Assembly: GCA_009829735.1 (NCBI GenBank)
Contig: CM020620.1
Coordinates: 23,348,020-23,412,019, forward strand
Length of the DNA stretch: 64,000 bases
Source of the DNA: Pyropia yezoensis
Lineage: Eukaryota; Rhodophyta; Bangiophyceae; Bangiales; Bangiaceae
Direction: 5' to 3'
Under the pieces are notes generated by a model. The model was not told where the DNA came from, searched no databases, and saw only the letters and a list, made by a program, of their open reading frames with translations. The translations under genes were made by a program, and so were the position numbers. Below, piece by piece: positions 4,811 to 64,000 of this stretch. Positions within the stretch are counted from its first letter, which is position 1, and every line of letters starts with the position of its first letter.

Positions 4811-5265
4811 TGTGGTATAAAACTCGATCCTCTCAGACACGTGTCAATATCCCTCGGGGGAAAGGGACAGGTAACGCAGAAAGGGGAACTACGAGAATGG
4901 TATGCCTGTTGCCTCACGTGCCTGCTCGCAGGGCAAACAGATACGCACGGTAGTGCACACGGGGAAGAGGAAAGCAAACGCGCAGTTGTCTTTTTCCCTG
5001 AGGGCGCGGGCCGAGGGCGCCTCGCTGTCCCTCTTAACGTGCATCTGGGGGAACCCCGGCACGTTGGCCCGGTAGCCCCCCCCATAACCCCGAGTGGCCC
5101 CGACCCGAGTCTAACCTCGTCAGGTCGGGGGCCACTATCACTACTAATTCTATTCCCACTCACTAATCTCACACTCAAATTCTCTCAAATCAAGTCCCTC
5201 ACAAATATGCAAAAACACATCAGAAATCCCTCTCTCGCGTGTGGATAGCGTAGTCCACCGCATCC
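4811..5265 (-). repeat. LTR of minus-strand Ty3 element (outer edge uncertain)
   Basis: The inner edge is TGTGGTATAA on the plus strand, next to the primer-binding site. The outer edge is placed near 5265 because an ACCGCA end is compatible with a TG..CA terminus and the neighbouring integrase sequence resumes there. No second LTR is visible to confirm it. Confidence 0.5.
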
Positions 5266-5313
5266 CAGTGCCGGGCACGGGCCACGGCCGCCAACCATCG
5301 CCACACGGCGGGC

Positions 5314-6738
5314 GTGTTCTGGCACCTGGTGCCCTCTGGTTGCAGTCCCGGGTCGGCGCCAAGTCGGGGCCAGGGATGCTACAGGACCGAACAACTTGTC
5401 GTCCCCGCATCCCTCAAGGACAGTATCCTTGAGAGGGAGCACAACGCTCCCACGGGTGGACACCTGGGGTCTAGTAAACTGTACCAGACCCTGAGGACCA
5501 GGTACTACTGGCCGTCCATGGTGGTGGACATCTACAGTTGGGTGGCTGCCTGCACAAGTTGTGCACAGAATCGTCTGATGTAACGGCGGCCTAGTACGGC
5601 TATGCTATTGTTCCCGGCCAAGGAGCCCTTCGCCGCGTTGGCGATGGACATCCTTGGGCCACTGCCCGTGACCGAGGAGGGCAACCAGTACCTCCTGGTC
5701 ATCTGTGACCGCTTCACGAAACTTACGCGAGCGATCCCACTGGCAGAGATCACGGCCATGTCGGTCGTGTCAGCCTTCCTAGATCACTGGGTTGCCGCGT
5801 ATGGCATCCCAGATAGTACACTATCGGACAATGGACCGCAATTTGCGTCTGTACTGTTTCAGGGAGTGCTGGATATGTTGGGGGTTAAGGCAAACTATGC
5901 CACCCCCTACCACCCACAAACTAATGGGCAGGTGGAGCGCTTCAACAAAACTATTGTTAGGCAGCTGCGCCACTATGTGAGTGAGCACGTGAAGACGTGG
6001 GACCAATACATTTCTATCCTTACTACTGCCTACAATTCGCAGGTTCACTCATCTACAGGGGAAGTACCCCTCGCTTTTGTGACCCCCCGTCGCGTGCGGT
6101 CTATTGCCGTGCGGCGGTCGCTCCCAACTAGGGAGGATGGTGGCAGTACGCCTACTCCTACTGAGAGTAAGGCGGAGTTCGCCGCTAGGCTTGAAAACCT
6201 CATCCCTAAAGTCAGGGCTGAGATGGACAAAGCACAAAAGCGCTACAAGCGTACCTTTGACAAAAAGGTGCGCAATGCTAAACATGTCCCCGAGCAGGGT
6301 GACTGGGTGCTGGTACACTCGCACACCCCAACTGGGGGTAAGCTGGTGTTCCAGACGAAGGGACCGTACCAGGTCCTTCGTACTGATGGGCGGCGCTTCA
6401 CCATCGAAAGTGACGATGGGGTCCGCACAGTGAACGGACAGGACGTGGTCAAAGTTGCACCACCGCCTGCAGGCGACCCAGCTTGGGCGCGTGCTTTGGA
6501 AGCGCGGCGCCTCCCCTCACTGCCTGCGGCCAAACAGGGCCCGCAGGAGTACGTGTTCGATAAGTTCATCGACCACGGATGGGATGAAGACACTGACCGC
6601 CTCATGTTGAGGGTGCGTTGGTTTGGCTACAAAGCCAAGGATGATACGTGGGAGTATGTGGAGGACCTTCCCGCTGAGAAGGTCCGGGCGTACTGTGCCC
6701 GGAATGAGATAGACCCTACCAGCCCTCCCTCAACGTGA
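5314..6738 (+). pseudogene. pol: Ty3/gypsy integrase with C-terminal chromodomain, one in-frame stop
   Basis: A zinc-binding HHCC module (REHNAPTGGHLG ... CTSCAQNR) occupies about 5435-5575. The catalytic core follows with ALAMDILGPLP, LSDNGPQF and PQTNGQVERF, which carry the D, D and E residues. The last 50 residues form a chromodomain (LRVRWFGYKAKDDTWEYVEDLP). A TAA at 5581-5583 splits the HHCC module from the core, but the same frame continues on both sides, so this is a nonsense change in one gene. The first bases are arbitrary: the upstream RT is missing. Integrase would insert the cDNA, and the chromodomain would steer it to particular chromatin. The stop at 6738 lies about 125 bases from the end of the converging antisense gene. 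Confidence 0.9.
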
Positions 6739-6862: not shown

Positions 6863-8794
6863 CTAGACTCTCCCACTCCACGGCCCTTGCCCGCACGTGG
6901 AGGCGAGCGGCGAGACCCACGCCGATAACGGTCTCCACTTGTTGGAGGGGGGCGGCGGCTCCAAGTCGGAACCGTCGCGTCCCTCACGGTCGCGCAAGTG
7001 GCGCCGACCGTGGCTACTCTTCTGCCTGGTCTTGCGCGCAAGTTTGCGACGCAGACGCTGGACAGACTCCGTCTCCGACGGGGTAGAGGACTCCGAAACG
7101 GAGTAAGACAACTCGTCTTCCGATACGGAAGGAGAGCGCCGCGAGTGTCGGCGACGACGGCGAGGAGGCGAGTATGCCCGGCTCGCGCGACGTTTGCCAC
7201 GCCCAAGTGGGGCTGGCTGGGGCATAATAGCCCCAATGCGAGCCAACTCGGCTGTCATAAACTCCGCCACCGACTCGCAACTCGCGGTCGCCACTGCAGT
7301 ACGAACGCGCTCCTCAAGTTCAGGAGTCTCGGAACTCTGTAGGGTTGCGGTCGACGCGGCCAACCAGGAAATGGTGCGCACCAACGTGGTGATCATCATC
7401 TCTGAGGTTAGAGGCGTGGGCGGCAACACCAACTTGGGGTATACCGTCAGGAGGGTGGCCCCCAAGTTGGGGGACACCGGGGTGGAAGACTCCACGGCCA
7501 CGCTGATCGGGATGTTCCCGTGAGGTTGGAAAGGAACAGGAGGAAGCGGAGGGGCCCGCCGAGGTGGCGGTACCCGGGTGTAACTGCGACCCCGACTTGG
7601 GGCCCCCGCAGTAGGTTGAGTCATATGGTCATCATATGAGGGCACAGCCATAACTATGGGCTTGTCCGGGGGTGGCGCAGTGTGGCGATCCACCCCCGGG
7701 GCATACGGGTAGTCCCCGATGCCCAACCCCTCTCGTAGGACCACACGGCCGTCGTGAAGTTCACGAGCGACCCACACGAACTGGCGAAGTGCGCCATCGT
7801 CCTTGGGCCCACGAGTGGGGCGGCGCAACTTGTGCTCAATGCTCTCCCACTCGATAAACTTATGGAGCCGGAGCACCTCCTCAAGTAGAGTGAGTTGTCC
7901 TGATGAGCATCCCTCAGCAACTAGCTGAGGGGTGAGCTGTTCCAAACCTTGGATGAGCCGGAGGGGGAGATGCCAGAGCATCCCCCGCCGCTGAACACAG
8001 GACACCCAGGTCGACATGACCTCGAGGAGCCACTGGGTGGCCAACATGGCCCACACCAGGTGATCAGGGGCAGCCGTCAACATGACGGAGCCGAAGTGGT
8101 CAAGCAACCGTGGCAACAACGCCGGGAACCCGTAGGGGACCTCAACTTGAGGCCACCACTCGGGCTTCTTCGGATAGTACTGCTCCTTACTGGCAGCAGA
8201 CTGTTGAGGAAACTCAAGTTGAGCCGAGGTCACCAAGTAGGGACCTCGCCGGAAGTCTTTCTCCATCCGCACATCAAAGTGATGAGTGTGCGGATCGGCC
8301 TCGTGGAGGTACGGTGGGCGAGTTGCCACAGCGTCCCACGTGAAGGTCGGCAAGTCGCCGGGACCCGGGATAGTTCCCCCGCGGTCCACCATGGCCTTGG
8401 CACGCTGAACGTCCTCAACTTCCTCATCGTCCAGGAAGTCAAACTGGTCCGTCCTGAAGCCGGCAGGGAACCCGACCCTACGGGGATACTTCTCCCGTAG
8501 GCGGTCCCATACCCGGCCCATCGCTGCGCCAAGTCGGCCACAGCGAAGAACAGTCAGCCCCTCCTCATAGAGAGGCCAAGCGGGGTAAAACCACCGCCCC
8601 AAGGCCTCACGCGGGACAACTTGTCCCGCCTCCGGGGGAGACCCCGCCGTCAACCCAAAGCCGGGTGACGCGGGAGTCCCGTCCCCCGGAGCGATCGCGG
8701 AGCCCCCGCCGGAAGTCCCGGCGGGTGCTGCCCCGTAGGAGGTGTCCTCCATGCGCTCGTCAAGAGAGTCCGTCACCACTCCCGGAGTCGCCAT
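6863..8794 (-). CDS. Antisense accessory protein of Ty3 element, family A copy 1 (novel)
   Basis: This is an open frame of about 643 codons, convergent with the integrase and internal to the element (left of the PPT). I recognise no known domain. The N-terminus is Gly/Ala/Pro-rich. The middle holds conserved blocks such as LGRWFYPAWPLYEEG, LLDHFGSVML and GMLWHLPLRLIQGLEQL. The C-terminal 120 residues are basic and Arg/Ser-rich (SPPRRRRRHSRRSPSVSED), like a nuclear or RNA-binding tail. The Met at 8794 is chosen because the copy at 45311 starts at the same place and both have a perfect hairpin two bases upstream. Relative to that copy the last 30 residues are in another frame, so a one-base indel near 6960 is likely and the true end may be about 6850. 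It resembles the 54735-56100 gene in its middle part. Confidence 0.75.
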   Translation of the reverse strand: MATPGVVTDSLDERMEDTSYGAAPAGTSGGGSAIAPGDGTPASPGFGLTAGSPPEAGQVVPREALGRWFYPAWPLYEEGLTVLRCGRLGAAMGRVWDRLREKYPRRVGFPAGFRTDQFDFLDDEEVEDVQRAKAMVDRGGTIPGPGDLPTFTWDAVATRPPYLHEADPHTHHFDVRMEKDFRRGPYLVTSAQLEFPQQSAASKEQYYPKKPEWWPQVEVPYGFPALLPRLLDHFGSVMLTAAPDHLVWAMLATQWLLEVMSTWVSCVQRRGMLWHLPLRLIQGLEQLTPQLVAEGCSSGQLTLLEEVLRLHKFIEWESIEHKLRRPTRGPKDDGALRQFVWVARELHDGRVVLREGLGIGDYPYAPGVDRHTAPPPDKPIVMAVPSYDDHMTQPTAGAPSRGRSYTRVPPPRRAPPLPPVPFQPHGNIPISVAVESSTPVSPNLGATLLTVYPKLVLPPTPLTSEMMITTLVRTISWLAASTATLQSSETPELEERVRTAVATASCESVAEFMTAELARIGAIMPQPAPLGRGKRRASRAYSPPRRRRRHSRRSPSVSEDELSYSVSESSTPSETESVQRLRRKLARKTRQKSSHGRRHLRDREGRDGSDLEPPPPSNKWRPLSAWVSPLASTCGQGPWSGRV

Positions 8795-9118: not shown

Positions 9119-9132
9119 TGAGGAGAGGGGAG
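9119..9132 (+). other. Polypurine tract
   Basis: The purine run GAGGAGAGGGGAG lies immediately before the LTR start TGTGGCA. Ty3 elements prime plus-strand DNA synthesis there. It gives the orientation of the element as plus and confirms that the accessory gene is antisense. Confidence 0.8.
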
Positions 9133-9602
9133 TGTGGCAGTATTGACCCCCAGGTAGGGGGGCAACACGTGCCATGCAAGGGGCGGCAGGCCACTAGCCT
9201 GATCCGTTCCTCCCCCTGCATTTGGGTCCATATTCCCTAAGTTTGGGATAGTTAGCTTAGTAGTAAATCCAACTTGGATTTGAGGGTTTTCTGCATTTAT
9301 CGTCTTGAATTTTCGTGTGGCCCGGTGGGCAGGTGCTGGGGTGGGAGATTCTGAGTGGCGAGATTCTGAGTGGACCCTGGGGGGATAAGGGGAGGGACAG
9401 CGGGGCTTGGCCCTGCGTCCCCGTCCCGACCAAGAAACTGTTGGACCACACACCATCCTCTTGTTTGTCCGTGGGGGGTTTGCCCCACAACAGGGACAGA
9501 GTGTGTGCGACTTGCACTTCTTCCGGTTCTCCCCGACACGGGAGGCAGCCCTAGCACACCGCCCCAACTTGGGTGCCGTGGGTGCTTGTGGTTTTTGCCA
9601 CA
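9133..9602 (+). repeat. 3' LTR, family A copy 1
   Basis: 470 bases with seven-base inverted ends TGTGGCA and TGCCACA, directly after a polypurine tract. It matches 44504-44972 with about ten differences, most of them in the last 60 bases. It contains GAGATTCTGAGTGG twice in a row (near 9349-9375) and the palindrome AAATCCAACTTGGATTT (9265-9281). An antisense frame through it encodes a Cys-rich stretch, frameshifted here. Confidence 0.85.
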
Positions 9603-17003: not shown

Positions 17004-17019
17004 GAAAAAAGGGGTGCAG

Positions 17020-41002: not shown

Positions 41003-41008
41003 CCCTTC

Positions 41009-41041
<33 letters not shown>

Positions 41042-41079
41042 TGGGAATCTCCTTAATCCATTCATGCGCGTCACTAAAT
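41003..41079 (-). rRNA. 28S (LSU) rRNA fragment, 3' exon of a group I intron
   Basis: On the minus strand the 77 bases run from ATTTAGTGACGCGCATGAAT to ACCACAGCGAAGGG. They match the near-universal eukaryotic LSU segment of the peptidyl-transferase domain with about three differences. Both sides are cut: the intron is at its 5' side, and at its 3' side the sequence passes into a pol fragment. It is therefore a relic and not a working rRNA gene. Confidence 0.85.
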
Positions 41080-44503: not shown

Positions 44504-44972
44504 TGTGGCAAAAACCACTTGCACACACGACACCCAAGTTGGGGCGGTGTACGAGGGCTGCCTCCCGTGTCGGGGGAACCGGAAGAAGTGCAAGTCGCAC
44601 ACACTCTGTCCCTGTTGTGGGGCAAACCCCCCACGGACAAACAAGAGGATGGTGTGTGGTCCAACAGTTTCTTGGTCGGGACGGGGACGCAGGGCCAAGC
44701 CCCGCTGTCCCTCCCCTTATCCCCCCAGGGTCCACTCAGAATCTCGCCACTCAGAATCTCCCACCCCAGCACCTGCCCACCGGGCCACACGAAAATTCAA
44801 GACGATAAATGCAGAAAACCCTCAAATCCAAGTTGGATTTACTACCAAGCTAACTATCCCAAACTTAGGGAATATGGGCCCAAATGCAGGGGGAGGAACG
44901 GATCAGGCTAGTGGCCTGCCGCCCCTTGCATGGCACGTGTTGCCCCCCTACGTGGGGGTCAATACTGCCACA
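44504..44972 (-). repeat. 3' LTR, family A copy 2
   Basis: Begins TGTGGCA and ends TGCCACA on the plus strand, with a pyrimidine run (the PPT complement) directly after it at 44973-44986. Nearly identical to 9133-9602. Confidence 0.85.
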
Positions 44973-45310: not shown

Positions 45311-47224
45311 ATGGCGACCCCGGGAGTGGAGACAGACTCTCTTGACGAGCGTATGGAGGACACCACCTACGGTGCAGCACCCGCCGGGACTTCCGGCGGG
45401 GGCTCCGCGATTGCTCCGGGGGATGGGACTCCCGCGTCACCCGGCTTTGGGTTGACGGCGGGATCTCCCCCGGAGGCGGGACAAGTTGTCCCGCGTGAGG
45501 CCTTGGGGCGGTGGTTTTACCCCGCTTGGCCTCTATATGAGGAGGGGTTGACTGTTCTTCGCTGTGGCCGACTTGGCGCAGCGATGGGTCGGGTATGGGA
45601 CCGCCTACGGGAGAAGTATCCCCGTAGGGTCGGGTTCCCTGCCGGCTTCAGGACGGACCAGTTTGCCTTCCTGGACGACGAGGAGGTCGAAGACGTACAG
45701 CGGGCCAAGGCCATGGTGGACCGCGGGGGAACTATCCCGGGTCCCGGCGACTTGCCGACCTTTACTTGGGACGCGGTGGCAACTCGCCCCCCGTACCTTC
45801 ACGAGGCCGATCCGCACACTCATCACTTTGATGTGCGGATGGAGAAGGACTTCCGGCGAGGTCCCTACTTGGTGACCTCGGCTCAACTTGAGTTTCCTCA
45901 GCAGTCTGCTGCCAGTCAGGAGCAGTACTATCCGAAGAAGCCCGAGTGGTGGCCTCAAGTTGAGGTCCCCTACGGGTTTCCGGCGTTGCTGCCACGGTTA
46001 CTTGACCACTTCGGCTCCGTCATGTTGACGGCTGGCCCTGATCACCTGGTGTGGGCCATGTTGGCCACCCAGTGGCTCCTCGAGGTCATGTCGACCTGGG
46101 TGTCTTGTGTTCAGCGGCGGGGGATGCTCTGGCATCTCCCCCTCCGGCTTATCCAAGGTTTGGAACAGCTCACCCCTCAGCTAGTTGCTGAGGGGTGCTC
46201 ATCAGGACAACTCACTCTACTTGAGGAGATGCTCCGCCTCCACAAGTTTATCGAGTGGGAGAGCATTGAGCACAAGTTGCGCCGCCCCACTCGTGGGCCC
46301 AAGGACGATGGCGCACTTCGCCAGTTCGTGTGGGTCGCTCGTGAACTTCACGACGGCCGTGTGGTCCTACGAGAGGGGTTGGGTATCGGGGACTACCCGT
46401 ATGCCCCGGGGGTGGATCGCCACACTGCGCCACCCCCGGACAAGCCCATAGTTATGGCCGTGCCCTCATATGATGACCATATGACTCAACCCACTGCGGG
46501 GGCCCCAAGTCGGGGTCGCAGTTACACCCGGGTCCCGCCACCTCGGCGGGCCCCTCCGCTTCCTCCTGTCCCCCTCCAGCCGCACGGGAACATCCCGATT
46601 AGCGTGGCCGTTGAGTCGTCCACCCCGGTGTCCCCCAACCTGGGGGCCACCCTCCTCACGGTATACCCCAAGTTGGTGTTACCGCCCACGCCTCTAACCT
46701 CAGAGATGATGATCACCACGTTGGTGCGCACCATTTCCTGGTTGGCCGCGTCGACCGCAACCCTTCAAACTTCCGAGACTCCTCAACTTGAGGAGCGCGT
46801 TCGCACTGCAGTGGCGACCGGAAGTTGCGAGTCGGTGGCGGAGTTTATGACGGCCGAGTTGGCTCGCATTGGGGCTATTATGCCCCAGCCAGCCCCACTT
46901 GGGCGTGGCAAACGTCGTGCGAGCCGGGCATACTCGCCTCCTCGCCGTCGTCGCCGACACTCGCGGCGCTCTCCCTCCGTGTCGGAAGACGAGTTGTCTT
47001 ACTCCGTCTCGGAGTCCTCGACTCTGTCAGAGTCGGAGTCGGTCCGGCGTCTGCGTCGCAAACTTGCGCGCAAGACCAAGCAGAAGAGTAGCCACGGTCG
47101 GCGCCACTTGCGCGACCGTGGGGGGCGCGACGGTTCCGACTTGGAGCCGCCGCCCCCTCCGACTGGTGGGGAACGTTATCGCCGTGGGTCTTGCCGCTCG
47201 CCTCCACGTGGGGGGGGTATGTAG
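45311..47224 (+). CDS. Antisense accessory protein of Ty3 element, family A copy 2 (novel)
   Basis: A complete frame of 637 residues, MATPGVETDSLDERMEDTTY to its end, about 95% identical to copy 1 at the protein level. No known domain was recognised. The order is: a Gly/Pro-rich N-terminus (1-70); a conserved globular part (about 70-370) with LGRWFYPAWPLYEEG, VWDRLREKYPRR and LLDHFGSVML; a Pro-rich linker (about 370-450); a helical segment (MMITTLVRTISWLAASTATL, about 470-490); and an Arg/Ser-rich tail (about 540-620). The stop TAG is supplied by the inserted LTR at 47220, so the last few residues are not original. In the first 131 codons, 16 of 19 differences from copy 1 are synonymous. Confidence 0.75.
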   Translation: MATPGVETDSLDERMEDTTYGAAPAGTSGGGSAIAPGDGTPASPGFGLTAGSPPEAGQVVPREALGRWFYPAWPLYEEGLTVLRCGRLGAAMGRVWDRLREKYPRRVGFPAGFRTDQFAFLDDEEVEDVQRAKAMVDRGGTIPGPGDLPTFTWDAVATRPPYLHEADPHTHHFDVRMEKDFRRGPYLVTSAQLEFPQQSAASQEQYYPKKPEWWPQVEVPYGFPALLPRLLDHFGSVMLTAGPDHLVWAMLATQWLLEVMSTWVSCVQRRGMLWHLPLRLIQGLEQLTPQLVAEGCSSGQLTLLEEMLRLHKFIEWESIEHKLRRPTRGPKDDGALRQFVWVARELHDGRVVLREGLGIGDYPYAPGVDRHTAPPPDKPIVMAVPSYDDHMTQPTAGAPSRGRSYTRVPPPRRAPPLPPVPLQPHGNIPISVAVESSTPVSPNLGATLLTVYPKLVLPPTPLTSEMMITTLVRTISWLAASTATLQTSETPQLEERVRTAVATGSCESVAEFMTAELARIGAIMPQPAPLGRGKRRASRAYSPPRRRRRHSRRSPSVSEDELSYSVSESSTLSESESVRRLRRKLARKTKQKSSHGRRHLRDRGGRDGSDLEPPPPPTGGERYRRGSCRSPPRGGGM

Positions 47225-47583
47225 CAATATGGTTGTCCGTATTGTGACCCTAATATTAGGGGGGGCTACTTCTAATCCTTAACTTTCAATTTGAGAGTCC
47301 GAGCTGGTCACGGTATCTATAAGTTACGTATGACCAGAGGGACTTGCATCTTGGGGTGGAGGGTAGTTAGTAGTGTCTCCGAGGGTTTATAACGAGGGGG
47401 CCGGTGGCGAATCCACCGCCGGCCAAGGTAGAACAACAAACCCCTCCCATTTGGGCTCCCATCTTGGTCCCGTGGCTTGCGCTCCAAGGACAGCAACCTT
47501 GGCCTCCCGGTGACGTTGGTGCCGATCCCCCTTGGTGAGTGTTCCCTGAGAGTGGACGTGCGACGGATTCCTATTGTGCTACA
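47220..47583 (+). repeat. 5' LTR, family B
   Basis: 364 bases with inverted ends TGTAGCA and TGCTACA. The primer-binding site starts one base after its end. Confidence 0.85.
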
Positions 47584-47584
47584 T

Positions 47585-47600
47585 TGGTGGAGCAGCAGGG
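47585..47600 (+). other. Primer-binding site, family B
   Basis: TGGTGGAGCAGCAGGG, the same 16 bases as in the element at 4791-4806 although the LTRs differ. It implies a tRNA ending in CCCTGCTGCTCCACCA. Confidence 0.8.
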
Positions 47601-47801: not shown

Positions 47802-49991
47802 GTGACTATGTCTACCCAAGAGACGGGGAACGTTCAAGATGACGGATCGGCGTCGACGCCGACTCCGGAGGTGACTACGGGAACCGGGATCGGGAACCCG
47901 ATCGATAACATTGAGACGCCAATGCTTTCCGGTGCCGGATCGACGTTTGGCACGGCTCGGACGGCAGGAGGCGGGGGCCCGCCTCAACTGTCGTCGACCG
48001 ACCTCACTCCGCCGCCTCCTTCACCAGGGGATTCCCTGATGGCATCATTGGCCCGCATCGAGGCCCGGTTTTCCGGGCTCGACGCCCGTCAAGATCGGAC
48101 GGAGGACGCAATGGCAGTGTTGATGTCAACACGGCACACGACGGGACCCCGTCGTGTTCCTCCCACACCGGTACGGTTCGAACCGGCCGGACTACTTTCG
48201 GAGTCCACCAGGGTCAATCCCGGGGTTGCTACTCCTGGACAACCCCCGGACACAATGGGGTATGGGTCCGACTCGTCGGCAGAGTTGGAACGGAGTCACA
48301 CGGAGCGATACGCTCGGAGCACCCGAAGCGGACTCCGCGGACACGACCCGGCGGATACGTACGCCGGGGGAGAGTCGGTTATTGGGGGAGGGGGTACCCT
48401 CTCGCAGTACCCCCACGACGAAGGAGGCCCGGCAACTCGGGTTCCCGAGGTGCCGACGCCTGAAGTACCATCTTCAGTGGTGGAAGCTATGACCGCGCAG
48501 GTAACTGCGAGCCTACTGAAGCGGATGGAGTCCGATGAGTTCGCTCATCAACTGGCTAAGCGACTGGATATCCAGGACGCTGACACGGAGATCGTCAACG
48601 AGGTCTTCCGGTCGGTTCTTACTCCGGAACGTTATCGTTTGGAGGACCGCTCTACCACCGTATCGGAATCGATGCGTAATACGTCGCATCGGGCGATCCG
48701 CTCTATGCAGACCCTTATGAAGGGAGTCCCTATGTTCGGGGGGCCGAACGGACGCCCGTTGGCAGTCATCGGCTTCTTGACTAGCTTCAAGGCAGCCGCA
48801 GACAAGGCGCTCGTTAACGAGGGGCTGGCCCTGGAGATCCTCCCGTTCTTTGTTGATGAACGGGTGCGAGGCATTCTTCGCCAGGCATCCCCGATGCCGG
48901 GAATGAGGGTCGCGGCCACCCCCATGGATTACCGTGGGATATTGAAGGAGCTGCTGAGCAGCTACCTCAGTGAGGACAAGTGCGAGGACCACTATCGGGC
49001 CCTTCGCACTGCCACCGCCCAGTCCTGGGAGGATGAGGAGATGTTTGGACGCCGGATCCAAGAGCTCGACTACGAGCTGGGGAAGCTCCTCGGAGAAGGG
49101 GAGCTACGGGCCATCCTGTTCGCAGGAGTACCCAACTACGTGCGGATATCCGCACGGGGCGCCAACACGGCACGGACGAACTTCAGTCGACTGATGCATA
49201 TGTGCAAGTCCCTAGGGGACGCCTACCGGGTTCTACACCCGGAGTGTGCCTTGGCCCCGAAGCCCAAGGGTGAGGGAGGCAAGCCCAGTCTTACCCCGGT
49301 ACCGAGGCAAGAGAAGGTGGAACGTAAGGCCGCACCAGTACTGGTGGCGACCGAACATACCCCTATTGGTGAGGGTGACCCTCTAGTCGACCAACAGGGC
49401 CACCTGTTGCTACCGGCGACGCCGGTGATTGATGAACATGGTACGGTAGCGTACATCGCCCCGGCTGGAACCCAGTTCCAGGTCAACGAAGGAACGGGAC
49501 GGCGCGTCCCGTATGTGCGGACTACGGGGTACTCCCCGGTGACGGGTAACCCTCACCAACCCTTGCCAACATGGGCGGTGCGCACGGAGGCACCCCCGCA
49601 GATTGCGGGCCGACCCAACCGGTTGGGGGAGTCCATGTTCCGGTTGACCCAAGGACCCAAGGCCTACCAGGGAGCAGGCACTCGGGCGCCCGAGGGAGGC
49701 AACCGTAGCTACGGGGCTACCCCGATGCGACCTCAAGGGGGGACCGGCACGTCCGGATGTATGTTGTGTGGGGATCCCCAGCACTGGGTGTCTTCCTGCC
49801 CACTCATCCCCGAGGAGTCTCGGCGGGCAGCGGCGCAACGCAAGGCATCCACCGGGGGGTATCCCGCCCGAGCACCCGGACCCGCACCGGGTAGGCAGCC
49901 AGCTCCAGGTGGAGTACTGGCCGTCGAGGGGGCACCTCCTCAGCCGGATGTCCCGGCGGACAGCACCCTACCAAGGGCGGGAAACGAGTAA
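47802..49991 (+). CDS. gag: Ty3/gypsy Gag, family B copy 1
   Basis: Intact, 729 residues, starting MSTQETGNVQDDGS at an ATG about 5 codons in; the first listed codon is also ATG. An N-terminal disordered Thr/Pro/Gly-rich part is followed by a helical capsid-like region (about 230-460: SVVEAMTAQVTASLLKRMES, LSSYLSEDKCEDHYRALRTA) and one CCHC knuckle, CMLCGDPQHWVSSC (about 650). The stop at 49989 is eight bases before the first ATG of pol. It builds the particle and packages RNA. The copy after the gap has several one-base indels in the same gene. Confidence 0.9.
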   Translation: MTMSTQETGNVQDDGSASTPTPEVTTGTGIGNPIDNIETPMLSGAGSTFGTARTAGGGGPPQLSSTDLTPPPPSPGDSLMASLARIEARFSGLDARQDRTEDAMAVLMSTRHTTGPRRVPPTPVRFEPAGLLSESTRVNPGVATPGQPPDTMGYGSDSSAELERSHTERYARSTRSGLRGHDPADTYAGGESVIGGGGTLSQYPHDEGGPATRVPEVPTPEVPSSVVEAMTAQVTASLLKRMESDEFAHQLAKRLDIQDADTEIVNEVFRSVLTPERYRLEDRSTTVSESMRNTSHRAIRSMQTLMKGVPMFGGPNGRPLAVIGFLTSFKAAADKALVNEGLALEILPFFVDERVRGILRQASPMPGMRVAATPMDYRGILKELLSSYLSEDKCEDHYRALRTATAQSWEDEEMFGRRIQELDYELGKLLGEGELRAILFAGVPNYVRISARGANTARTNFSRLMHMCKSLGDAYRVLHPECALAPKPKGEGGKPSLTPVPRQEKVERKAAPVLVATEHTPIGEGDPLVDQQGHLLLPATPVIDEHGTVAYIAPAGTQFQVNEGTGRRVPYVRTTGYSPVTGNPHQPLPTWAVRTEAPPQIAGRPNRLGESMFRLTQGPKAYQGAGTRAPEGGNRSYGATPMRPQGGTGTSGCMLCGDPQHWVSSCPLIPEESRRAAAQRKASTGGYPARAPGPAPGRQPAPGGVLAVEGAPPQPDVPADSTLPRAGNE

Positions 49992-49999
49992 GAGGAAGG

Positions 50000-52900
50000 A
50001 TGACCGGGGGGCGCTGGGGTCACCCAAGCAAGCCACCCCGGAGTACCGCGGGGAAAGCCCCACGGAGAGCGCGGTTGAGCCGACGCCGCATCAACCCCCG
50101 GGTACACCTTCCGGCCCCGACGACACGGCGTCAGGGGATTGATGACCAACCTCCGAGGTTGGGAGGAGAGGACGGGAAGCCCCTTCACGTTGAACCAGAC
50201 AAGGGCCCTGTTCAGGATGCCCGAGCTACACCGGATATCGGTGTAGGACATGTGTTGTTTACCTTGGAGAACTTCAAGGTATCAGCCACACTGGGGGTTG
50301 ACCCCCAGTCGACACGATCGTACTACCCTGTACTGGACACAGGGGCTGGACCCAACCTTATCCGGAAGGATACCCTCCCGGACAAGTGGCTTCCACGAGT
50401 CAGAGTGACTCGGGGACCCACCATCAAGGACGCGAATGGTCGACTCATTCGTACGACCGCAGCGATGTCGCTGCAGGTTACCATCGGGGATCTCACCACG
50501 GAAGTTGACTTCCTGGTATGTGAAACGCTATCGGTGCCCTGCATACTGGGGTGCACCTTCATCAACGTTCACGTTGATGCAATCCGGCCAGGCCGGAGGA
50601 CCGTCGAGCTTCAAGAAGCCGACGGGACGAAGCGAGGACACACGGCTATCGTCAGGGACCTGACGCTACAAGGAAGCCACGTTAACGTGGCTGAGGTGTA
50701 CGCAAGCGTCGAGCCGAAGACACTTCGGTTGGCCAAGCGAACTCGCTTTGAGCCGTTGTCAGAGACAGTCCTCCCGGTTAACTGCGACCTCGCAGGCATC
50801 TGCAGAGTCCAGTCCAACCTACGGACGTACAAGCGCCATGGGTTGACCATGGCCAACGGTCTCATAGACCTCCCAGCAGGAGGGTCGTCCCTCCTAGTGA
50901 TGGCGAACTACCGCCGTAAGGCAGTCACCCTCCCGAAGGAAACTATCCTCGGGATTGCCGAACTCTACGAAGGAGATATCCTTACCCCTGATAAGGAAGG
51001 TCAAGTGGAACCACTTGAAGTACTGGCGGTCGCCGAGACCACCGAGCGACAGCAACCCGATGACGGGAAGCCTAACCCATCGGCGGCTCCGGCGGACCTG
51101 CCGCCAAAGGACCAAGAGGCCTTGAAGGCACTGGCCGAGGCTGACCTCGACCACCTTCCCCCTTCGGTAGCCGAAGGGGTACGACGGATGCTAAGAAAGC
51201 ATGACGTTATGTGGACAGGCGGGGCCTTGGGGACCATTGGGGCAACCCAACATCGTATAGACCTGGTACCAGGCGCACGACCCGCCCGCTCACAACCGCA
51301 CCGAGCGGGACCTATGCAACGAGAGATCGTTGATGGAGAAGTGAAGAGGATGAGTGAAGCTAAGGTGATCCGACCTTCGATGTCGGAATGGGGTGCCCCA
51401 GTCGTTATTGTGCCGAAGAAGGATCAAACCCCTCGGTTTTGCATCGATTATCGACGCCTCAACTTGGTTACCAAGAAGGACTCATACCCTTTACCAAGGA
51501 TGGATGAATGCATCGACTCCCTGGGGGAGGCTACGGTGTTTACCACCATCGACTGCAATGCCGGATACTGGCAGATCCCGGTGGCGGACGAGGATATCCC
51601 CAAGACGGCATTCGTCTGTCACAGTGGAGTGTACGAGTTCCTAAGGATGCCCTTCGGATTGTCCAACGCCCCCGCTACATTCCAGCGGGCTATCGACATC
51701 ATACTGTCTGGGGTGAAGTGGCGTAACTGCCTAGTGTACCTCGATGACGTCATCGTCTTCTCGCGTAACATGGATGACCATGTACAACATGTTGACGAGG
51801 TACTCACCCTCTTGAGGAACGCCGGGGTAACCCTGCGTCTGAAGAAGTGCGCCTTCTTCCAACAGACGGTCGAATATCTGGGCCACCAGATAACCCCTGG
51901 TAAACTAGGGGTACTCGAAGCCAATACCCGGGCACTCCGGGATGCCCGGAGCCCTAACACCCAGACGCAGCTCAAGAGCTTCCTGGGAATGTGCAATGTA
52001 TACCGACGGTTCGTCAAGGACTTCGCTCGGATAGCTAAACCGTTAACGGTTCTTACGAGCAGTACCTTACCCAAGGTACTCCAACCCCCTTCGCCTAGCG
52101 AAGAGGAGGCATTCGAGTCGCTGAAGCGAGCCCTACTAGCCCCACCCGTCCTTGCGTTACCGCATAGACGGGGTACCTTCGTCATCGATGTCGATGCGTG
52201 TGATACACAAGTGGGATGCACCCTGTTACAGGGGAGACGTTGATCGGTACCGATAACGTTATCCCGGACCTACGTCCGGTAGGGTACTTCAGCCGGACAC
52301 TCAACCCGGCTGAGCGGAACTATAGTGCCACCGAGCGTGAATGCCTCGGAGTTATATGGGCAGTGCAACTGCTCCGTCCATACCTGGAAGGCTCCAGGTT
52401 CATCGTGAGGTCCGACCACGAACCCCTACGATGGCTCCTCAACCTTGGTGACAAGGATTCCGATAGCCATGGGAGGCTAGCCCGATGGAGGCTGAAGATG
52501 GCCGAGCACGACTACCGCACGGTGTATAAGGCTGGGTCAACCCACCACCTCGGAGACGCGTTGTCGCGACTCGACACCCCGAGCGGGGATACCCGCCCGG
52601 TGGACGAGGACATCCCGGTAGTACCGGTGTGCATGGTGGGTAATGCTACCCAGGGTATGGCTGACCATACCATGGCACACCTTGCGTGCCCATTGACCCT
52701 CGCGGACTTCCGCGAGGCACAGGCCAACGACGATGACTGTAGACGTCATCGTGCTAACCTCCTAGCCGGTACGGCCGGCATCTTCTCCGAGAACGAAGAC
52801 GGACTCATATACCGGCGGGCACCCGCCGATGGACGACATCAAGTCGTGGTTCCCGTGTCCTTACGGCAAGCCGTCATGAAACGAGAACATGAGAACCCTA

Positions 52901-54165
52901 CAGCCGGACACCCGGGGGGTTCACGTATGTTCGCAGCAATGCGAAGGTTCTTCTACTGGCCAGCAATGGCCGTCGACGTGGTCGACCACGTACGGGGATG
53001 CCACCCCTGTGCACGTAACCGCATGAGTCTACATAGGCGGGCGTCTGCCATGAAGCTATTCCCACCTGATGGGCCCAACGAGCAAGTCGCTATCGACATA
53101 CTCGGGCCACTTCCGATAACGGAAGAAGGGAACAGGTACATCCTGGTCATGTCTGACCGCTTCACTAAGCTGTCAAGAGCGGCAGCCATCCCGAATGATA
53201 CGGCATACACGATCATGAACGCAGTGGTTGACCACTGGATCAGTGCATACGGAGTCATGAAGCAACTCCTCTCCGATAACGGAGCAAACCTTACGTCGGC
53301 ATTCTGCACTAAGGTCCTGGGCATGTTCCGGTATCGAACCACGTCGGGCATCCGACTACCACCCGCAGTCCAACGGGCAGGTGGAGCGGTTCAACCGCAC
53401 CATCGTAAAGATGCTACAGTGCTACGTGGCCGAGCACACGAACACTTGGGACAGGCTTCTGTCCGTACTCACCCTGGCATACAATGCCAGGCCACATCGG
53501 AGCACAAAACATTGCTCCGCTGGAGTGGGTCATGCCACTAGGCGTCGGTAACCTGACGCTGCCACCCGGCAGGTGCACTCGGTATGATACACCGAAGGGC
53601 CGACCCGCCGAACGCATCCACCTAGCTTGGTTGGCCAAGCTATCGTGGATGATTCCTAAGCTCAAGGGTGCCCTGGACAGAACACAACTTCGGTATAAGA
53701 AGAACTTCGACGCCCGACTACGGGTGCGCAACGCAACCCTGGTAACAGGTGACTGGGTCTATATCAGACACCAGAAGTTCCGAGGGAACAAGCTTATGCA
53801 ACCGGTCAAGGGACCGTACCAGATCCTCCACAGAGATGACCACTCTGTTATCTTACACTCCGATACGGAGATCCAACGCATCAGTATGAATGATGTCACA
53901 CCTGCTCCGAAGCCGGAACAGCCTCAGCCGGTACCGGCTGGGTTGCTACATGAAGCTCTTACAACCCACCGGTCGGATGACCCGGTGGGACCGGATGGGA
54001 TTCCATACCAAGTAGAGAGCGTGGTCGGACACACCGACCCGGACATACCAGGACCCTGTACGTCAAGGTTATGTGGGTCGGATACGACTCACCCACTGGG
54101 AACAGGCGGCGAATATACCCCGCCAACTCCTCATGCCGTACATGAGGCGACGACGCCTACTGTAA
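50000..54165 (+). pseudogene. pol: Ty3/gypsy Pol, family B copy 1 (several one-base frameshifts)
   Basis: In order: protease (YPVLDTGAGPNLI, about 50330), RT (FCIDYRRLNLVTKKDSYPLP, MPFGLSNAPATFQRA, YLDD at 51737), RNase H (DVDACDTQVG, TERECLGVIW, SDHEPLRWLL), integrase HHCC (KREHENPTAGHPG ... CHPCARNR), catalytic core (DILGPLP, LSDNGANL) and a chromodomain-like tail. Compared with the copy at 58115-62280, this one lacks a G at 52231-52234, has an extra C near 53328 and an extra A near 53508, and lacks a G near 54057 and a C near 54093. Each breaks the frame. All lie in short homopolymers, so miscalls are likely. Confidence 0.9.
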
Positions 54166-54242
54166 CACCCAACCGACACCGACTTCGGCTGTTGGGGGGT
54201 GAGGCTTATACCTACTAAGTAGGGTGTGACATGGTTATGGCA

Positions 54243-54734: not shown

Positions 54735-56100
54735 TTACCTCGGTGCATGGCTGGACGAGGTGCTGCGGCCAGCCTCCACGTCCTCCAGAGCTTTCTGGAG
54801 GCGGTCCAGCACGCCACCGAAGCAACGCGCTGACCCAACCAGCGCAGCACCTGGGGGGATATCCCCCCAGCTAACAGAGAGACCCCCACGCATTGCGCGG
54901 GTAACAAGGGCGTCAACGCCTTCATACCAGAGACGGGGACCCCCGTCATGTAGGACAGGGGCGGGAGGTGACACTGGCGCAGCCAGAGGAGCCACAGGAG
55001 CCGACACGGCTACCACCGGAGCCGGTGGCACCTGATACGAGGCCCGGTAGGACCCTACCGAAGGGGCTCCACCGTAACCACGGCGGTACTCCGCCCGACG
55101 ACGGGACACCTCACGCTCCCCACCCACAGAGCCCCACTCTCGGGGACGACGGCCAACCGCCGCCGGCATCGGGTTACCGAACCACGGAGCAAGGACCTGA
55201 AGAGGGTCATGGATAACCATGGGAATACCCAGGTCAGGAACGGCCTCGGTGGACGCCCACCCATGGCAACTAGGCTCACCCGGCTGAGTACGCCGGACAC
55301 GCAACGAGTGACGAGGCAAGGGGGAAGCCCCAGCCTGCGGGTCCCGGTACGGGGGAAGGGCCAACACCCCAGCCCAGTTCACGGCATCGTGAACAGCCAG
55401 CAGGGCTTCGAACTCCCGGGCCAACCCGGTCTTGGCAGCTATCAGATCCACGCCCAACTGCGCGATGTGCCGACGGACACCCGTCGGAAGATGAAACAGA
55501 CGACCCTGCCGGCGGACGGACAGCAAGAAGGATGAAGCCTGCCCGAGGGTAACCTCAAGGGTGAAGGTACCCTGCAACGGGTGGACCGGTCGCGAGGCCA
55601 ACACACTCCCGAAGTAGCGAAGACAGGAGCCGGTGTCAAACCGGAAAGCAGGGGCGGGTTCCCACCCCTCCTGCCATAGCGGCGGGCGCACGGGAGTGTA
55701 TACCGGAGCACGACCGTTGCCGGTCTGCAACGCACACGTTATATCCGTGCGGAACGCATCCGCCATGACACCATGGTTACGTCGCCAACTCGACGCCGAC
55801 TTCAACCCCGCCATGGGCGGGTAGGGAGCCGTCAACGACAGATACGGGGGTACCCCCGGGTAGTAGTCAAAGTCGGGATACCGACCGGTACGGCTCACCG
55901 TCTCCCCAAACGCAACCGGCTCCGCCGCCGCCGCAATCCCCGAGCACTAGCCGGGTAGTCAATCTCCCGCGGCAACGCGGGGGCAATCAAGTCGCAGACC
56001 CCGAAGTTGGGGTCGAGGTAGACCTCACCCCGTCCCACCCGGGTGCGCCAGAGCTGCGCATGCCGGTCGTCCGGCTGACTCAGGATCCAATGGTGTTCCA
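54735..56100 (-). CDS. Antisense accessory protein, family B copy 1 (N-terminus in gap)
   Basis: Convergent with pol, like the family A gene. The clear frame runs from 55898 (MSRTGRYPDFDYYPG context, no ATG) to 54735. Upstream of about 55950 a one-base shift leads to another open frame (LWRTRVGRGEVYLDPNFGVC, DLIAPALPREIDYPASAR) that runs into the N gap. The middle matches family A position by position (LRYFGSVLASRPVHP, LSVRRQGRLFHLPTGVR, LLAVHDAVNW). The tail has RREVSRRRAEYRRGY-type basic sequence and a Pro/Val-rich linker. The end is uncertain: relative to copy 2 a missing G near 54759 changes the last residues. Confidence 0.65.
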
Positions 56101-58106: not shown

Positions 58107-58114
58107 GAGGAAGG

Positions 58115-61100
58115 ATGACCGGGGGGCGCTGGGGTCACCCAAGCAAGCCACCCCGGAGTACCGCGGGGAAAGCCCCACGGAGAGCGCGGTTGAGCCGACG
58201 CCGCATCAACCCCCGGGTACACCTTCCGGCCCCGACGACACGGCGTCAGGGGATTGATGACCAACCTCCGAGGTTGGGAGGAGAGGACGGGAAGCCCCTT
58301 CACGTTGAACCAGACAAGGGCCCTGTTCAGGATGCCCGAGCTACACCGGATATCGGTGTAGGACATGTGTTGTTTACCTTGGAGAACTTCAAGGTATCAG
58401 CCACACTGGGGGTTGACCCCCAGTCGACACGATCGTACTACCCTGTACTGGACACAGGGGCTGGACCCAACCTTATCCGGAAGGATACCCTCCCGGACAA
58501 GTGGCTTCCACGAGTCAGAGTGACTCGGGACCCACCATCAAGGACGCGAATGGTCGACTCATTCGTACGACCGCAGCGATGTCGCTGCAGGTTACCATCG
58601 GGGATCTCACCACGGAAGTTGACTTCCTGGTATGTGAAACGCTATCGGTGCCCTGCATACTGGGGTGCACCTTCATCAACGTTCACGTTGATGCAATCCG
58701 GCCAGGCCGGAGGACCGTCGAGCTTCAAGAAGCCGACGGGACGAAGCGAGGACACACGGCTATCGTCAGGGACCTGACGCTACAAGGAAGCCACGTTAAC
58801 GTGGCTGAGGTGTACGCAAGCGTCGAGCCGAAGACACTTCGGTTGGCCAAGCGAACTCGCTTTGAGCCGTTGTCAGAGACAGTCCTCCCGGTTAACTGCG
58901 ACCTCGCAGGCATCTGCAGAGTCCAGTCCAACCTACGGACGTACAAGCGCCATGGGTTGACCATGGCCAACGGTCTCATAGACCTCCCAGCAGGAGGGTC
59001 GTCCCTCCTAGTGATGGCGAACTACCGCCGTAAGGCAGTCACCCTCCCGAAGGAAACTATCCTCGGGATTGCCGAACTCTACGAAGGAGATATCCTTACC
59101 CCTGATAAGGAAGGTCAAGTGGAACCACTTGAAGTACTGGCGGTCGCCGAGACCACCGAGCGACAGCAACCCGATGACGGGAAGCCTAACCCATCGGCGG
59201 CTCCGGCGGACCTGCCGCCAAAGGACCAAGAGGCCTTGAAGGCACTGGCCGAGGCTGACCTCGACCACCTTCCCCCTTCGGTAGCCGAAGGGGTACGACG
59301 GATGCTAAGAAAGCATGACGTTATGTGGACAGGCGGGGCCTTGGGGACCATTGGGGCAACCCAACATCGTATAGACCTGGTACCAGGCGCACGACCCGCC
59401 CGCTCACAACCGCACCGAGCGGGACCTATGCAACGAGAGATCGTTGATGGAGAAGTGAAGAGGATGAGTGAAGCTAAGGTGATCCGACCTTCGATGTCGG
59501 AATGGGGTGCCCCAGTCGTTATTGTGCCGAAGAAGGATCAAACCCCTCGGTTTTGCATCGATTATCGACGCCTCAACTTGGTTACCAAGAAGGACTCATA
59601 CCCTTTACCAAGGATGGATGAATGCATCGACTCCCTGGGGGAGGCTACGGTGTTTACCACCATCGACTGCAATGCCGGATACTGGCAGATCCCGGTGGCG
59701 GACGAGGATATCCCCAAGACGGCATTCGTCTGTCACAGTGGAGTGTACGAGTTCCTAAGGATGCCCTTCGGATTGTCCAACGCCCCCGCTACATTCCAGC
59801 GGGCTATCGACATCATACTGTCTGGGGTGAAGTGGCGTAACTGCCTAGTGTACCTCGATGACGTCATCGTCTTCTCGCGTAACATGGATGACCATGTACA
59901 ACATGTTGACGAGGTACTCACCCTCTTGAGGAACGCCGGGGTAACCCTGCGTCTGAAGAAGTGCGCCTTCTTCCAACAGACGGTCGAATATCTGGGCCAC
60001 CAGATAACCCCTGGTAAACTAGGGGTACTCGAAGCCAATACCCGGGCACTCCGGGATGCCCGGAGCCCTAACACCCAGACGCAGCTCAAGAGCTTCCTGG
60101 GAATGTGCAATGTATACCGACGGTTCGTCAAGGACTTCGCTCGGATAGCTAAACCGTTAACGGTTCTTACGAGCAGTACCTTACCCAAGGTACTCCAACC
60201 CCCTTCGCCTAGCGAAGAGGAGGCATTCGAGTCGCTGAAGCGAGCCCTACTAGCCCCACCCGTCCTTGCGTTACCGCATAGACGGGGTACCTTCGTCATC
60301 GATGTCGATGCGTGTGATACACAAGTGGGATGCACCCTGTTACAGGGGGAGACGTTGATCGGTACCGATAACGTTATCCCGGACCTACGTCCGGTAGGGT
60401 ACTTCAGCCGGACACTCAACCCGGCTGAGCGGAACTATAGTGCCACCGAGCGTGAATGCCTCGGAGTTATATGGGCAGTGCAACTGCTCCGTCCATACCT
60501 GGAAGGCTCCAGGTTCATCGTGAGGTCCGACCACGAACCCCTACGATGGCTCCTCAACCTTGGTGACAAGGATTCCGATAGCCATGGGAGGCTAGCCCGA
60601 TGGAGGCTGAAGATGGCCGAGCACGACTACCGCACGGTGTATAAGGCTGGGTCAACCCACCACCTCGGAGACGCGTTGTCGCGACTCGACACCCCGAGCG
60701 GGGATACCCGCCCGGTGGACGAGGACATCCCGGTAGTACCGGTGTGCATGGTGGGTAATGCTACCCAGGGTATGGCTGACCATACCATGGCACACCTTGC
60801 GTGCCCATTGACCCTCGCGGACTTCCGCGAGGCACAGGCCAACGACGATGACTGTAGACGTCATCGTGCTAACCTCCTAGCCGGTACGGCCGGCATCTTC
60901 TCCGAGAACGAAGACGGACTCATATACCGGCGGGCACCCGCCGATGGACGACATCAAGTCGTGGTTCCCGTGTCCTTACGGCAAGCCGTCATGAAACGAG
61001 AACATGAGAACCCTACAGCCGGACACCCGGGGGGTTCACGTATGTTCGCAGCAATGCGAAGGTTCTTCTACTGGCCAGCAATGGCCGTCGACGTGGTCGA

Positions 61101-62280
61101 CCACGTACGGGGATGCCACCCCTGTGCACGTAACCGCATGAGTCTACATAGGCGGGCGTCTGCCATGAAGCTATTCCCACCTGATGGGCCCAACGAGCAA
61201 GTCGCTATCGACATACTCGGGCCACTTCCGATAACGGAAGAAGGGAACAGGTACATCCTGGTCATGTCTGACCGCTTCACTAAGCTGTCAAGAGCGGCAG
61301 CCATCCCGAATGATACGGCATACACGATCATGAACGCAGTGGTTGACCACTGGATCAGTGCATACGGAGTCATGAAGCAACTCCTCTCCGATAACGGAGC
61401 AAACCTTACGTCGGCATTCTGCACTAAGGTCCTGGGCATGTTCGGTATCGAACCACGTCGGGCATCCGACTACCACCCGCAGTCCAACGGGCAGGTGGAG
61501 CGGTTCAACCGCACCATCGTAAAGATGCTACAGTGCTACGTGGCCGAGCACACGAACACTTGGGACAGGCTTCTGTCCGTACTCACCCTGGCATACAATG
61601 CCAGGCCACATCGGAGCACAAACATTGCTCCGCTGGAGTGGGTCATGCCACTAGGCGTCGGTAACCTGACGCTGCCACCCGGCAGGTGCACTCGGTATGA
61701 TACACCGAAGGGCCGACCCGCCGAACGCATCCACCTAGCTTGGTTGGCCAAGCTATCGTGGATGATTCCTAAGCTCAAGGGTGCCCTGGACAGAACACAA
61801 CTTCGGTATAAGAAGAACTTCGACGCCCGACTACGGGTGCGCAACGCAACCCTGGTAACAGGTGACTGGGTCTATATCAGACACCAGAAGTTCCGAGGGA
61901 ACAAGCTTATGCAACCGGTCAAGGGACCGTACCAGATCCTCCACAGAGATGACCACTCTGTTATCTTACACTCCGATACGGAGATCCAACGCATCAGTAT
62001 GAATGATGTCACACCTGCTCCGAAGCCGGAACAGCCTCAGCCGGTACCGGCTGGGTTGCTACATGAAGCTCTTACAACCCACCGGTCGGATGACCCGGTG
62101 GGACCGGATGGGATTCCATACCAAGTAGAGAGCGTGGTCGGACACACCGACCCGGACATACCAGGACCCTGGTACGTCAAGGTTATGTGGGTCGGATACG
62201 ACTCACCCACCTGGGAACAGGCGGCGAATATACCCCGCCAACTCCTCATGCCGTACATGAGGCGACGACGCCTACTGTAA
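58115..62280 (+). pseudogene. pol: Pol, family B copy 2 (nearly intact)
   Basis: One missing G near 58528 shifts the frame between the protease (DTGAGPNLI, about 58450) and the rest. From 58501 a single frame of 1,259 residues covers the RT (YLDD at 59851), RNase H, integrase with HHCC and DDE motifs (SDNGANLTSAF, QSNGQVERFNRTI) and a chromodomain-like end (WVGYDSPTWEQAANIPRQLL). This is the best pol reading in the window. The stop TAA is at 62278-62280, 78 bases before the hairpin repeats. Confidence 0.9.
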
Positions 62281-62358
62281 CAACCCAACCGACACCGACT
62301 TCGGCTGTTGGGGGGTGAGGCTTATACCTACTAAGTAGGGTGTGACATGGTTATGGCA

Positions 62359-62761: not shown

Positions 62762-64000
62762 TCAGTGGGTAGACCCACTGCCCGAGGGAGGCCACTCACG
62801 CGTAAGCGCGTATACCTCCGTGCTCCACCGGTCGGCAATGTCACGACGGTCGACCACCCGAGTTACCTCGGTGCATGGCTGGACGAGGGTGCTGCGGCCA
62901 GCCTCCACGTCCTCCAGAGCTTTCTGGAGGCGGTCCAGCACGCCACCAAAGCAACGCGCTGACCCAACCAGCGCAGCACCTGGGGGGATATCCCCCCAGC
63001 TAACAGAGAGACCCCCACGCATTGCGCGGGTAACAAGGGCGTCAACGCCTTCATACCAGAGACGGGGACCCCCGTCATGTAGGACAGGGGCGGGAGGTGA
63101 CACTGGCGCAGCCAGAGGAGCCACAGTAGCCGACACGGCTACCACCGGAGCCGGTGGCACCTGATACGAGGCCCGGTAGGACCCTACCGAAGGGGCTCCA
63201 CCGTAACCACGGCGGTACTCCGCCCGACGACGGGACACCTCACGCTCCCCACCCACAGAGCCCCACTCTCGGGGACGACGGCCAACCGCCGCCGGCATCG
63301 GGTTACCGAACCACGGAGCAAGGACCTGAAGAGGGTCATGGATAACCATGGGAATACCCAGGTCAGGAACGGCCTCGGTGGACGCCCACCCATGGCAACT
63401 AGGCTCACCCGGCTGAGTACGCCGGACACGCAACGAGTGACGAGGCAAGGGGGAAGCCCCAGCCTGCGGGTCCCGGTACGGGGGAAGGGCCAACACCCCA
63501 GCCCAGTTCACGGCATCGTGAACAGCCAGCAGGGCTTCGAACTCCCGGGCCAACCCGGTCTTGGCAGCTATCAGATCCACGCCCAACTGCGCGATGTGCC
63601 GACGGACACCCGTCGGAAGATGAAACAGACGACCCTGCCGGCGGACGGACAGCAAGAAGGATGAAGCCTGCCCGAGGGTAACCTCAAGGGTGAAGGTACC
63701 CTGCAACGGGTGGACCGGTCGCGAGGCCAACACACTCCCGAAGTAGCGAAGACAGGAGCCGGTGTCAAACCGGAAAGCAGGGGCGGGTTCCCACCCCTCC
63801 TGCCATAGCGGCGGGCGCACGGGAGTGTATACCGGAGCACGACCGTTGCCGGTCTGCAACGCACACGTTATATCCGTGCGGAACGCATCCGCCATGACAC
63901 CATGGTTACGTCGCCAACTCGACGCCGACTTCAACCCCGCCATGGGCGGGTAGGGAGCCGTCAACGACAGATACGGGGGTACCCCCGGGTAGTAGTCAAA
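62762..64000 (-). CDS. Antisense accessory protein, family B copy 2 (open at window end)
   Basis: Open from the window edge (FDYYPGVPPYLSL) to a stop at 62762, 400 residues from the first Met at 63964. Nearly identical to copy 1, but with a different last 40 residues because of a one-base difference near 62889. It carries the conserved block LRYFGSVLASRPVHP, then LFHLPTGVRRHIAQLGVDLI, a basic stretch (GEREVSRRRAEYRRGY) and a Pro/Val/Ala linker. The function is unknown; see family A. Confidence 0.65.
   Translation of the reverse strand, partial: FDYYPGVPPYLSLTAPYPPMAGLKSASSWRRNHGVMADAFRTDITCALQTGNGRAPVYTPVRPPLWQEGWEPAPAFRFDTGSCLRYFGSVLASRPVHPLQGTFTLEVTLGQASSFLLSVRRQGRLFHLPTGVRRHIAQLGVDLIAAKTGLAREFEALLAVHDAVNWAGVLALPPYRDPQAGASPLPRHSLRVRRTQPGEPSCHGWASTEAVPDLGIPMVIHDPLQVLAPWFGNPMPAAVGRRPREWGSVGGEREVSRRRAEYRRGYGGAPSVGSYRASYQVPPAPVVAVSATVAPLAAPVSPPAPVLHDGGPRLWYEGVDALVTRAMRGGLSVSWGDIPPGAALVGSARCFGGVLDRLQKALEDVEAGRSTLVQPCTEVTRVVDRRDIADRWSTEVYALTREWPPSGSGSTH

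Follow-up and report, generated by a model that had tools for sequence, protein, structure and literature searches.

Antisense genes and retroelements in the window

The window, by which we mean the whole 64,000-nt stretch of Pyropia (Neopyropia) yezoensis DNA analysed, is 64% GC, carries many long ORFs in all frames and is interrupted by N gaps at 1–378 and 56101–56600. A sequence-only reading had proposed that it holds four copies of a large antisense accessory ORF (aORF), which is shared by two Ty3/gypsy families, referred to here as A and B, runs convergent with pol and lies inside the element, before the polypurine tract (PPT) and LTR. All four ORFs are present in the ORF listing of the 64,000-nt window.

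In family A copy 1, the 3′ part of pol (integrase and a chromodomain-like C-terminus, assigned from ORFs and Pfam) occupies 5254..6738 of the plus strand, with one stop separating 5254–5583 from 5584–6738; the segment 5584–6735 matches rve (E=3e-12) and, under the curated cut-off, Chromo (E=2.3e-4). The aORF follows on the minus strand (6863..8794, ATG at 8794), its frame being lost at the 3′ end through an indel near 6952. The PPT and LTR that the reading had placed to the right of the family A copy are real: the PPT gaggagaggggag (9120..9132, plus strand), found at the same place in the genome copy L010, precedes the 3′ LTR (9133..9602, plus strand, TGTGGCA...TGCCACA), the repeat that stands at both ends of complete elements.

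Family A copy 2 is reversed, so that its 3′ LTR (44504..44972, minus strand) comes before the aORF in the window and adjoins a gag-like ORF of another element. This gag-like ORF (42554–44504), in which inspection by eye shows a knuckle of CCHC type and a DIGT motif resembling that of a protease and which has no Pfam match, is broken by the LTR. The aORF of copy 2 (45311..47224, 637 codons) reads on the plus strand of the window, and since its family A element runs the opposite way, the gene is antisense to pol here as well. A family B element follows immediately with its 5′ LTR: beyond 47214 the two A copies are no longer homologous, the B LTR starts at 47220, and therefore the final codons and the stop of 45311–47224 are not A sequence.

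The 5′ LTR of family B (47220..47583, plus strand, TGTAGCA...TGCTACA) matches the 3′ LTR of the genome copy L041 at 98.6% and, as in family A, is directly followed by a primer-binding-site-like sequence, TGGTGGAGCAGCAGGG (47585..47600, plus strand), recognised by eye. Family B copy 1 continues with gag and a frame-broken pol (47808..54218, plus strand) and an aORF on the minus strand (54735..56100), the 5′ part of which is lost in the N gap at 56101–56600. The pol domains are seen in copy 2 (58417..62280, plus strand), where Pfam identifies RT, RNase H and integrase; its aORF (62762..64000, minus strand) is truncated where the window ends. With 99.6% identity, a distance of about 8.1 kb and a 500-N gap between them, the two B copies (48481–64000) may be one element assembled twice. 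While the four ORFs exist as claimed, the number of copies may therefore be three.

Other retroelement remains are found in the window. At 40351–41052 the minus strand carries the 3′ end of a B-like pol (86% to B). It is followed by a gag-like ORF, judged by eye, in place of an aORF, and is a truncated or nested relative. A third Ty3 family, with gag, protease and RT-RNase H on the minus strand, occupies 1–4628 and is cut by an N gap; its RT-RNase H is 58% identical to those of both A and B. Finally, a tandem array with a 24-bp unit extends over 16994–17657.

Complete elements in the genome

We searched the genome assembly (107.48 Mb in 11 contigs, the three long ones being 43.6, 34.3 and 29.4 Mb) and for family A took 20 stretches of 10 kb, selected by aORF. 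In 12 of the 20, full-length LTRs of like orientation could be aligned as a pair, with 93.4–99.8% identity between the LTRs of an element; eleven of these elements span 9.37–9.38 kb and one (L026) spans 5.0 kb. The complete element of ~9.4 kb has the order LTR, gag, pol, aORF (reversed), LTR. Its LTR of ~470 bp is followed by TT-TGGTGGAGCAGCAGGG and then by gag; in L010 the gag frame has 678 codons and the pol frame 1380, the latter comprising RT, RNase H, both the zinc finger and the core of integrase and, under the cut-off (20.6–21.5 bits for Chromo in family A, against 25.1), a chromodomain-like end. A protease gave no Pfam match in L010, where a DTGS motif is seen. The stop codons of pol and aORF are 111 bp apart, a full-length aORF measures 724 codons from stop to stop and about 647 from the ATG, and about 340 bp separate it from the PPT, after which comes the LTR.

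Outer ends were read by exact motif, and eight family A copies were readable at both. Identical 5-bp target duplications flank five of them (L009, L015, L021, L024 and L025), L023 shows a one-base difference, and L016 and L017 show no match. The last two (C1:39.94–39.96 Mb) lie about 10 kb from each other, point in opposite directions, share the 3′ flank CACAT and have nearly identical aORFs, perhaps through a local inverted duplication.

For family B, the 3′ LTR, which is absent from the window, is seen in L041. There, about 480 bp lie between pol and an antisense frame that is 990 codons long, or 815 if counted from the first Met, and beyond this frame stands the 3′ LTR. Complete A elements and L041 thus agree with the layout proposed from the window, and we confirm that in these elements aORF sits antisense between pol and the PPT and 3′ LTR. 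Both families are Ty3/gypsy: LTRs, primer-binding site, PPT and 5-bp duplications are found, and the order RT, RNase H, integrase holds in A (L010) as well as in B. The pol proteins of the two are 41% identical and the gag proteins 25% identical over 220 residues. Judging from the copies seen, A and B have many members, some of them young; the genome is described as 48% repeats, mostly LTR elements (PMC7423979).

A separate arrangement was observed at C2:9880067–9892399, where four B-type aORF copies stand in direct tandem at a spacing of exactly 3489 bp. Their open frames are 916–917 codons long, three with one TAG; the spacing is too small for pol, and the tandem may therefore be an amplified aORF–LTR unit.

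The antisense frame is maintained and under protein-level constraint

Loci chosen by aORF could overstate its constancy, and selection with integrase DNA avoids this. Of the 40 integrase matches listed we fetched 12, one being the window copy, and in all 12 aORF directly follows pol; relatives without the gene, which the sequence-only reading had named as a refutation of its proposal, thus number zero among these 12. As the listed matches are the best-scoring ones, the result speaks for young copies. The frame is free of stops in 69 of the 70 top-scored protein matches listed for the A aORF (42 of which share the score 1411.9) and in 127 of the 130 top-scored B-type matches listed for a 303-residue query, both lists holding the best-scored candidates only and hence being biased toward good copies. 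When the best-scoring copy at each of the 20 fetched A loci is compared over 635 codons, 12 keep the frame, seven have a stop or a frame-breaking indel and one is without the 5′ part.

Substitutions are distributed as in a coding gene. The two A aORFs of the window differ at 9/9/56 sites in codon positions 1/2/3; summed over the 20 genome loci, differences from window copy 2 number 301/246/648 in aORF, a pattern similar in shape to that of integrase (162/119/476, 20 loci). Among family B subfamilies (L041, L042, L044, L045 and the window copy), dN/dS is 0.22–0.36 in nine of ten pairs, at dS of 0.12–1.5; the remaining pair, whose members are nearly identical (dS 0.034), gives 0.54. As had been claimed, A and B share an aORF core: BLASTP aligns 199 residues of the two proteins (E=1e-9), of which 25% are identical. 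This divergence is about that of gag, as expected if the gene has been carried with gag and pol since the A/B split; aORF would accordingly have been inherited with gag-pol from the common ancestor of the two families.

We conclude that aORF is protein-coding and under constraint at the protein level. A long ORF arising by chance might be suspected in DNA of 64% GC with so many long ORFs in every frame, yet the codon-position skew, dN/dS well under 1, the A–B homology and the relatives in a second species (see below) refute this reading, to which we assign a negligible probability. It is also improbable that the functional product is the antisense transcript, regulating the element by pairing with genomic RNA, with the ORF being secondary. 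The convergent layout would be expected to yield double-stranded RNA, an idea discussed for plant elements (PMC7264820), but the strong protein-level constraint and a homology between A and B that has been kept at 25% identity point to the protein.

Relatives and features of the aORF protein

A search with the A aORF gave one Logan protein (P0001) among the matches listed, and the B core gave 10 proteins, six of them annotated as hypothetical proteins of Pyropia vietnamensis. With a profile, 18 relatives were found among the matches listed, seven from P. vietnamensis and the other 11 bearing no name; P0001, itself a row of the profile query alignment, is not among these 18. All named relatives among the matches listed are from P. 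vietnamensis, and protein similarity thus shows that B-type aORF relatives occur in a second Pyropia species.

The absence of a recognisable family, noted earlier from the letters, is borne out, and a clear match to a known host gene, which would likewise have refuted the proposal, did not emerge: no known protein family matches aORF significantly, and in particular neither the window proteins nor 12 aORF proteins contain a significant Pfam domain. The nearest candidate, DUF6214 (E 0.042 with the window B protein and 0.014 with one of the 12 members), falls under its cut-off and was rejected. The best hit in a sequence search of the PDB has an E-value of 0.26 and is not credible. We also dropped a by-eye likeness to Transposase_28 in the CLRYFGSVL...F region, for which there is no profile match: PF04195 finds nothing in the genome at E<=1 (the control genomes matched only in E. 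coli, under the cut-off, and so supplied no true positive) and nothing in the 12 aORF proteins, with filters that remove most matches weaker than E 0.1. A very distant relation to Transposase_28 is possible.

Two AlphaFold runs, with 12 and 13 alignment rows, gave a mean pLDDT of 32.5 and 36.8, and given these low values we assign no fold; the better run hints at helices over the conserved core (about residues 231–320 of the construct) and the C-terminal 90 residues. The highest 19-residue hydropathy in the protein is 1.37. A bipartite NLS-like motif, KRRASRAYSPPRRRRR, lies at residue 534 of the A aORF, in an Arg/Ser-rich tail. Both the motif and a clearly basic tail are confined to family A, and the earlier statement that both families end in basic or Arg/Ser-rich tails is therefore supported for A.

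These features make it very improbable that aORF is an env-like protein or a captured host gene. Env or transduced genes do sit after pol, but an env-like gene is in sense orientation and encodes transmembrane segments, whereas aORF is antisense and its hydropathy maximum does not indicate a strongly hydrophobic segment. Capture of a host gene is countered by the lack of a significant Pfam family and by the presence of the gene in both families and in all 12 integrase-selected loci that were fetched, although the match lists fill with element copies, among which a host homologue outside elements could be missed.

Comparison with known antisense genes

The layout is known from the aORF-3R class of plant Ty3/gypsy elements, represented by gene23 of Grande, RIRE2, ORF4 of Retand and PvRetro13, and by the fungal element Boty (PMC7264820). 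As described there, these genes share with aORF the place between pol and the 3′ LTR, the antisense direction and the presence in most copies of a family; in aORF, we further find selection similar to that on integrase. The Grande antisense protein is described as nuclear and as having its own promoter (PMC7264820). The red-algal gene differs from the plant ones in its host, in having no Transposase_28 (PF04195) match and in the chromodomain-like pol end of family A; the proteins of Grande, RIRE2, PvRetro13 and Boty were compared with aORF by description alone. Retand belongs to a non-chromovirus lineage and its antisense product, TRP28, is said to occur only in flowering plants (PMC11963269), which sets it apart from a gene with a red-algal host, a chromodomain-like A pol end (under the cut-off) and no PF04195. 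The HBZ/APH-2 genes of HTLV, with a nuclear product (PMC11963269), resemble aORF, by description alone, in being antisense genes of a retroelement.

Judged by these searches and comparisons, aORF is a new protein family of a known structural kind, the antisense accessory ORFs. In the open-access literature on antisense ORFs of Ty3 elements, on red algae and on Bangiales, we found no red-algal case of such a gene in titles or abstract openings. Red algae repeat the plant antisense layout with a protein that has no detectable relation to the TRP28 domain. What such accessory ORFs do in plant Ty3/gypsy elements is treated as an open question (PMC7264820, PMC11963269), on which this recurrence bears.

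Short elements retain the antisense gene

Family A includes short non-autonomous elements in which aORF is retained while most of gag is absent, together with RT, RNase H and the core of integrase. They are made up of the LTR, the leader, a gag remnant (to L010 position 1084), 334 bp of pol and then everything from inside integrase through aORF to the LTR. As they retain pol residues 333–444 and from 1113 onward, with 1–332 and 445–1112 absent, they have no RT, RNase H, integrase zinc finger or integrase core. L020 and L026 have common junctions, and all 40 matches listed for a 601-base junction query cover it (39 fully, one to base 600). The LTRs of L026 are 99.15% identical, and locus L020 holds two aORF copies. 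Among seven short aORFs, those of L020, L026 and L050 are open over the compared length, that of L046 is half covered and open, and those of L047, L048 and L049 are broken, by one stop and two frame-breaking indels.

Four short copies for which both regions were fetched (L020, L026, L047 and L049) allow aORF to be compared with the integrase remnant. Counted by codon position, the remnant has 14/13/18 variable sites and aORF 24/13/73 (Fisher p=0.0038), or 11/11/10 and 15/8/47 without CpG sites (p=0.0011). L020 and L026 taken alone give little contrast (18/11/37 in aORF, 9/6/15 in integrase), and between the integrase remnant of short copies and the integrase of autonomous copies there is no significant difference (p=0.23). 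Between short-copy aORFs, dN/dS is 0.21–0.39 in five of six pairs, and 0.76 in the pair L026–L050 (dS 0.019). That aORF is constrained in the short derivatives while the integrase remnant shows no codon bias is a good lead, though not proof.

The short elements depend on borrowed gag and pol and yet retain aORF; its product therefore probably benefits the copy that encodes it, a cis preference. We accordingly propose, at what we regard as roughly even chances, that aORF is an element-borne accessory gene of red-algal Ty3/gypsy elements with such a benefit. Its transcription would start at a promoter on the minus strand, within or next to the 3′ LTR, and its product would be a soluble, partly disordered protein, which in family A may be nuclear, as suggested by the NLS-like motif in the Arg/Ser-rich tail. 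The protein might, for example, bind the chromatin or RNA of its own element, which would then be expressed, unsilenced or exported; a cis-acting role, in anti-silencing or in the handling of RNA, would be consistent with the observations. A model for such a function is VANC of the VANDAL transposons, an anti-silencing protein regarded as shielding its own family from silencing; VANDALs are DNA transposons and VANC is a different protein, so that the analogy is functional only.

Alternatively, aORF could encode a shared factor acting in trans, and the short elements could hold the gene only for cis signals in that DNA (an antisense promoter, the PPT, or sequences for packaging or reverse transcription) or through its renewal by recombination with autonomous copies. 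We consider this doubtful, if clearly the strongest of the competing explanations. The aORF of the autonomous L027 groups within the short-copy clade, and recombination could thus import aORFs that were selected in autonomous elements; moreover, the leader, the LTRs and the whole 3′ region are also retained in the short elements. However, the constraint on aORF is codon-periodic, which is not the effect expected of a signal in DNA or RNA, and no codon periodicity is seen in the integrase remnant that these copies carry about 0.1 kb away. A shared trans-acting protein could decay in non-autonomous copies, as the integrase remnant appears to, and aORF overall has not, a step towards cis benefit that is based on four short copies. 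The short elements thus constitute a natural experiment on the role of aORF that argues for a benefit to the carrier copy and is testable by sequence alone.

More tentatively, and with the balance somewhat against it, the proposal of cis benefit can be extended: the red-algal aORF family would act in cis, stripped-down elements would be selected to keep it, and together with TRP28 it would represent a recurrent third gene of Ty3 elements. If so, carrying aORF would in effect decide which copies get expressed or transposed, and, taken with TRP28 in defective Retand elements, an antisense copy-protecting gene would have become a third Ty3 gene recurrently, from more than one origin. In Retand, the TRP28 antisense ORF is reported for 61 of 63 tabulated clusters, including every tabulated cluster that is without a gag, AP, RH or INT domain (in one of these, TRP28 lies in a short ORF); as in the short family A elements, the antisense ORF is kept where replication domains are lost (PMC11963269).
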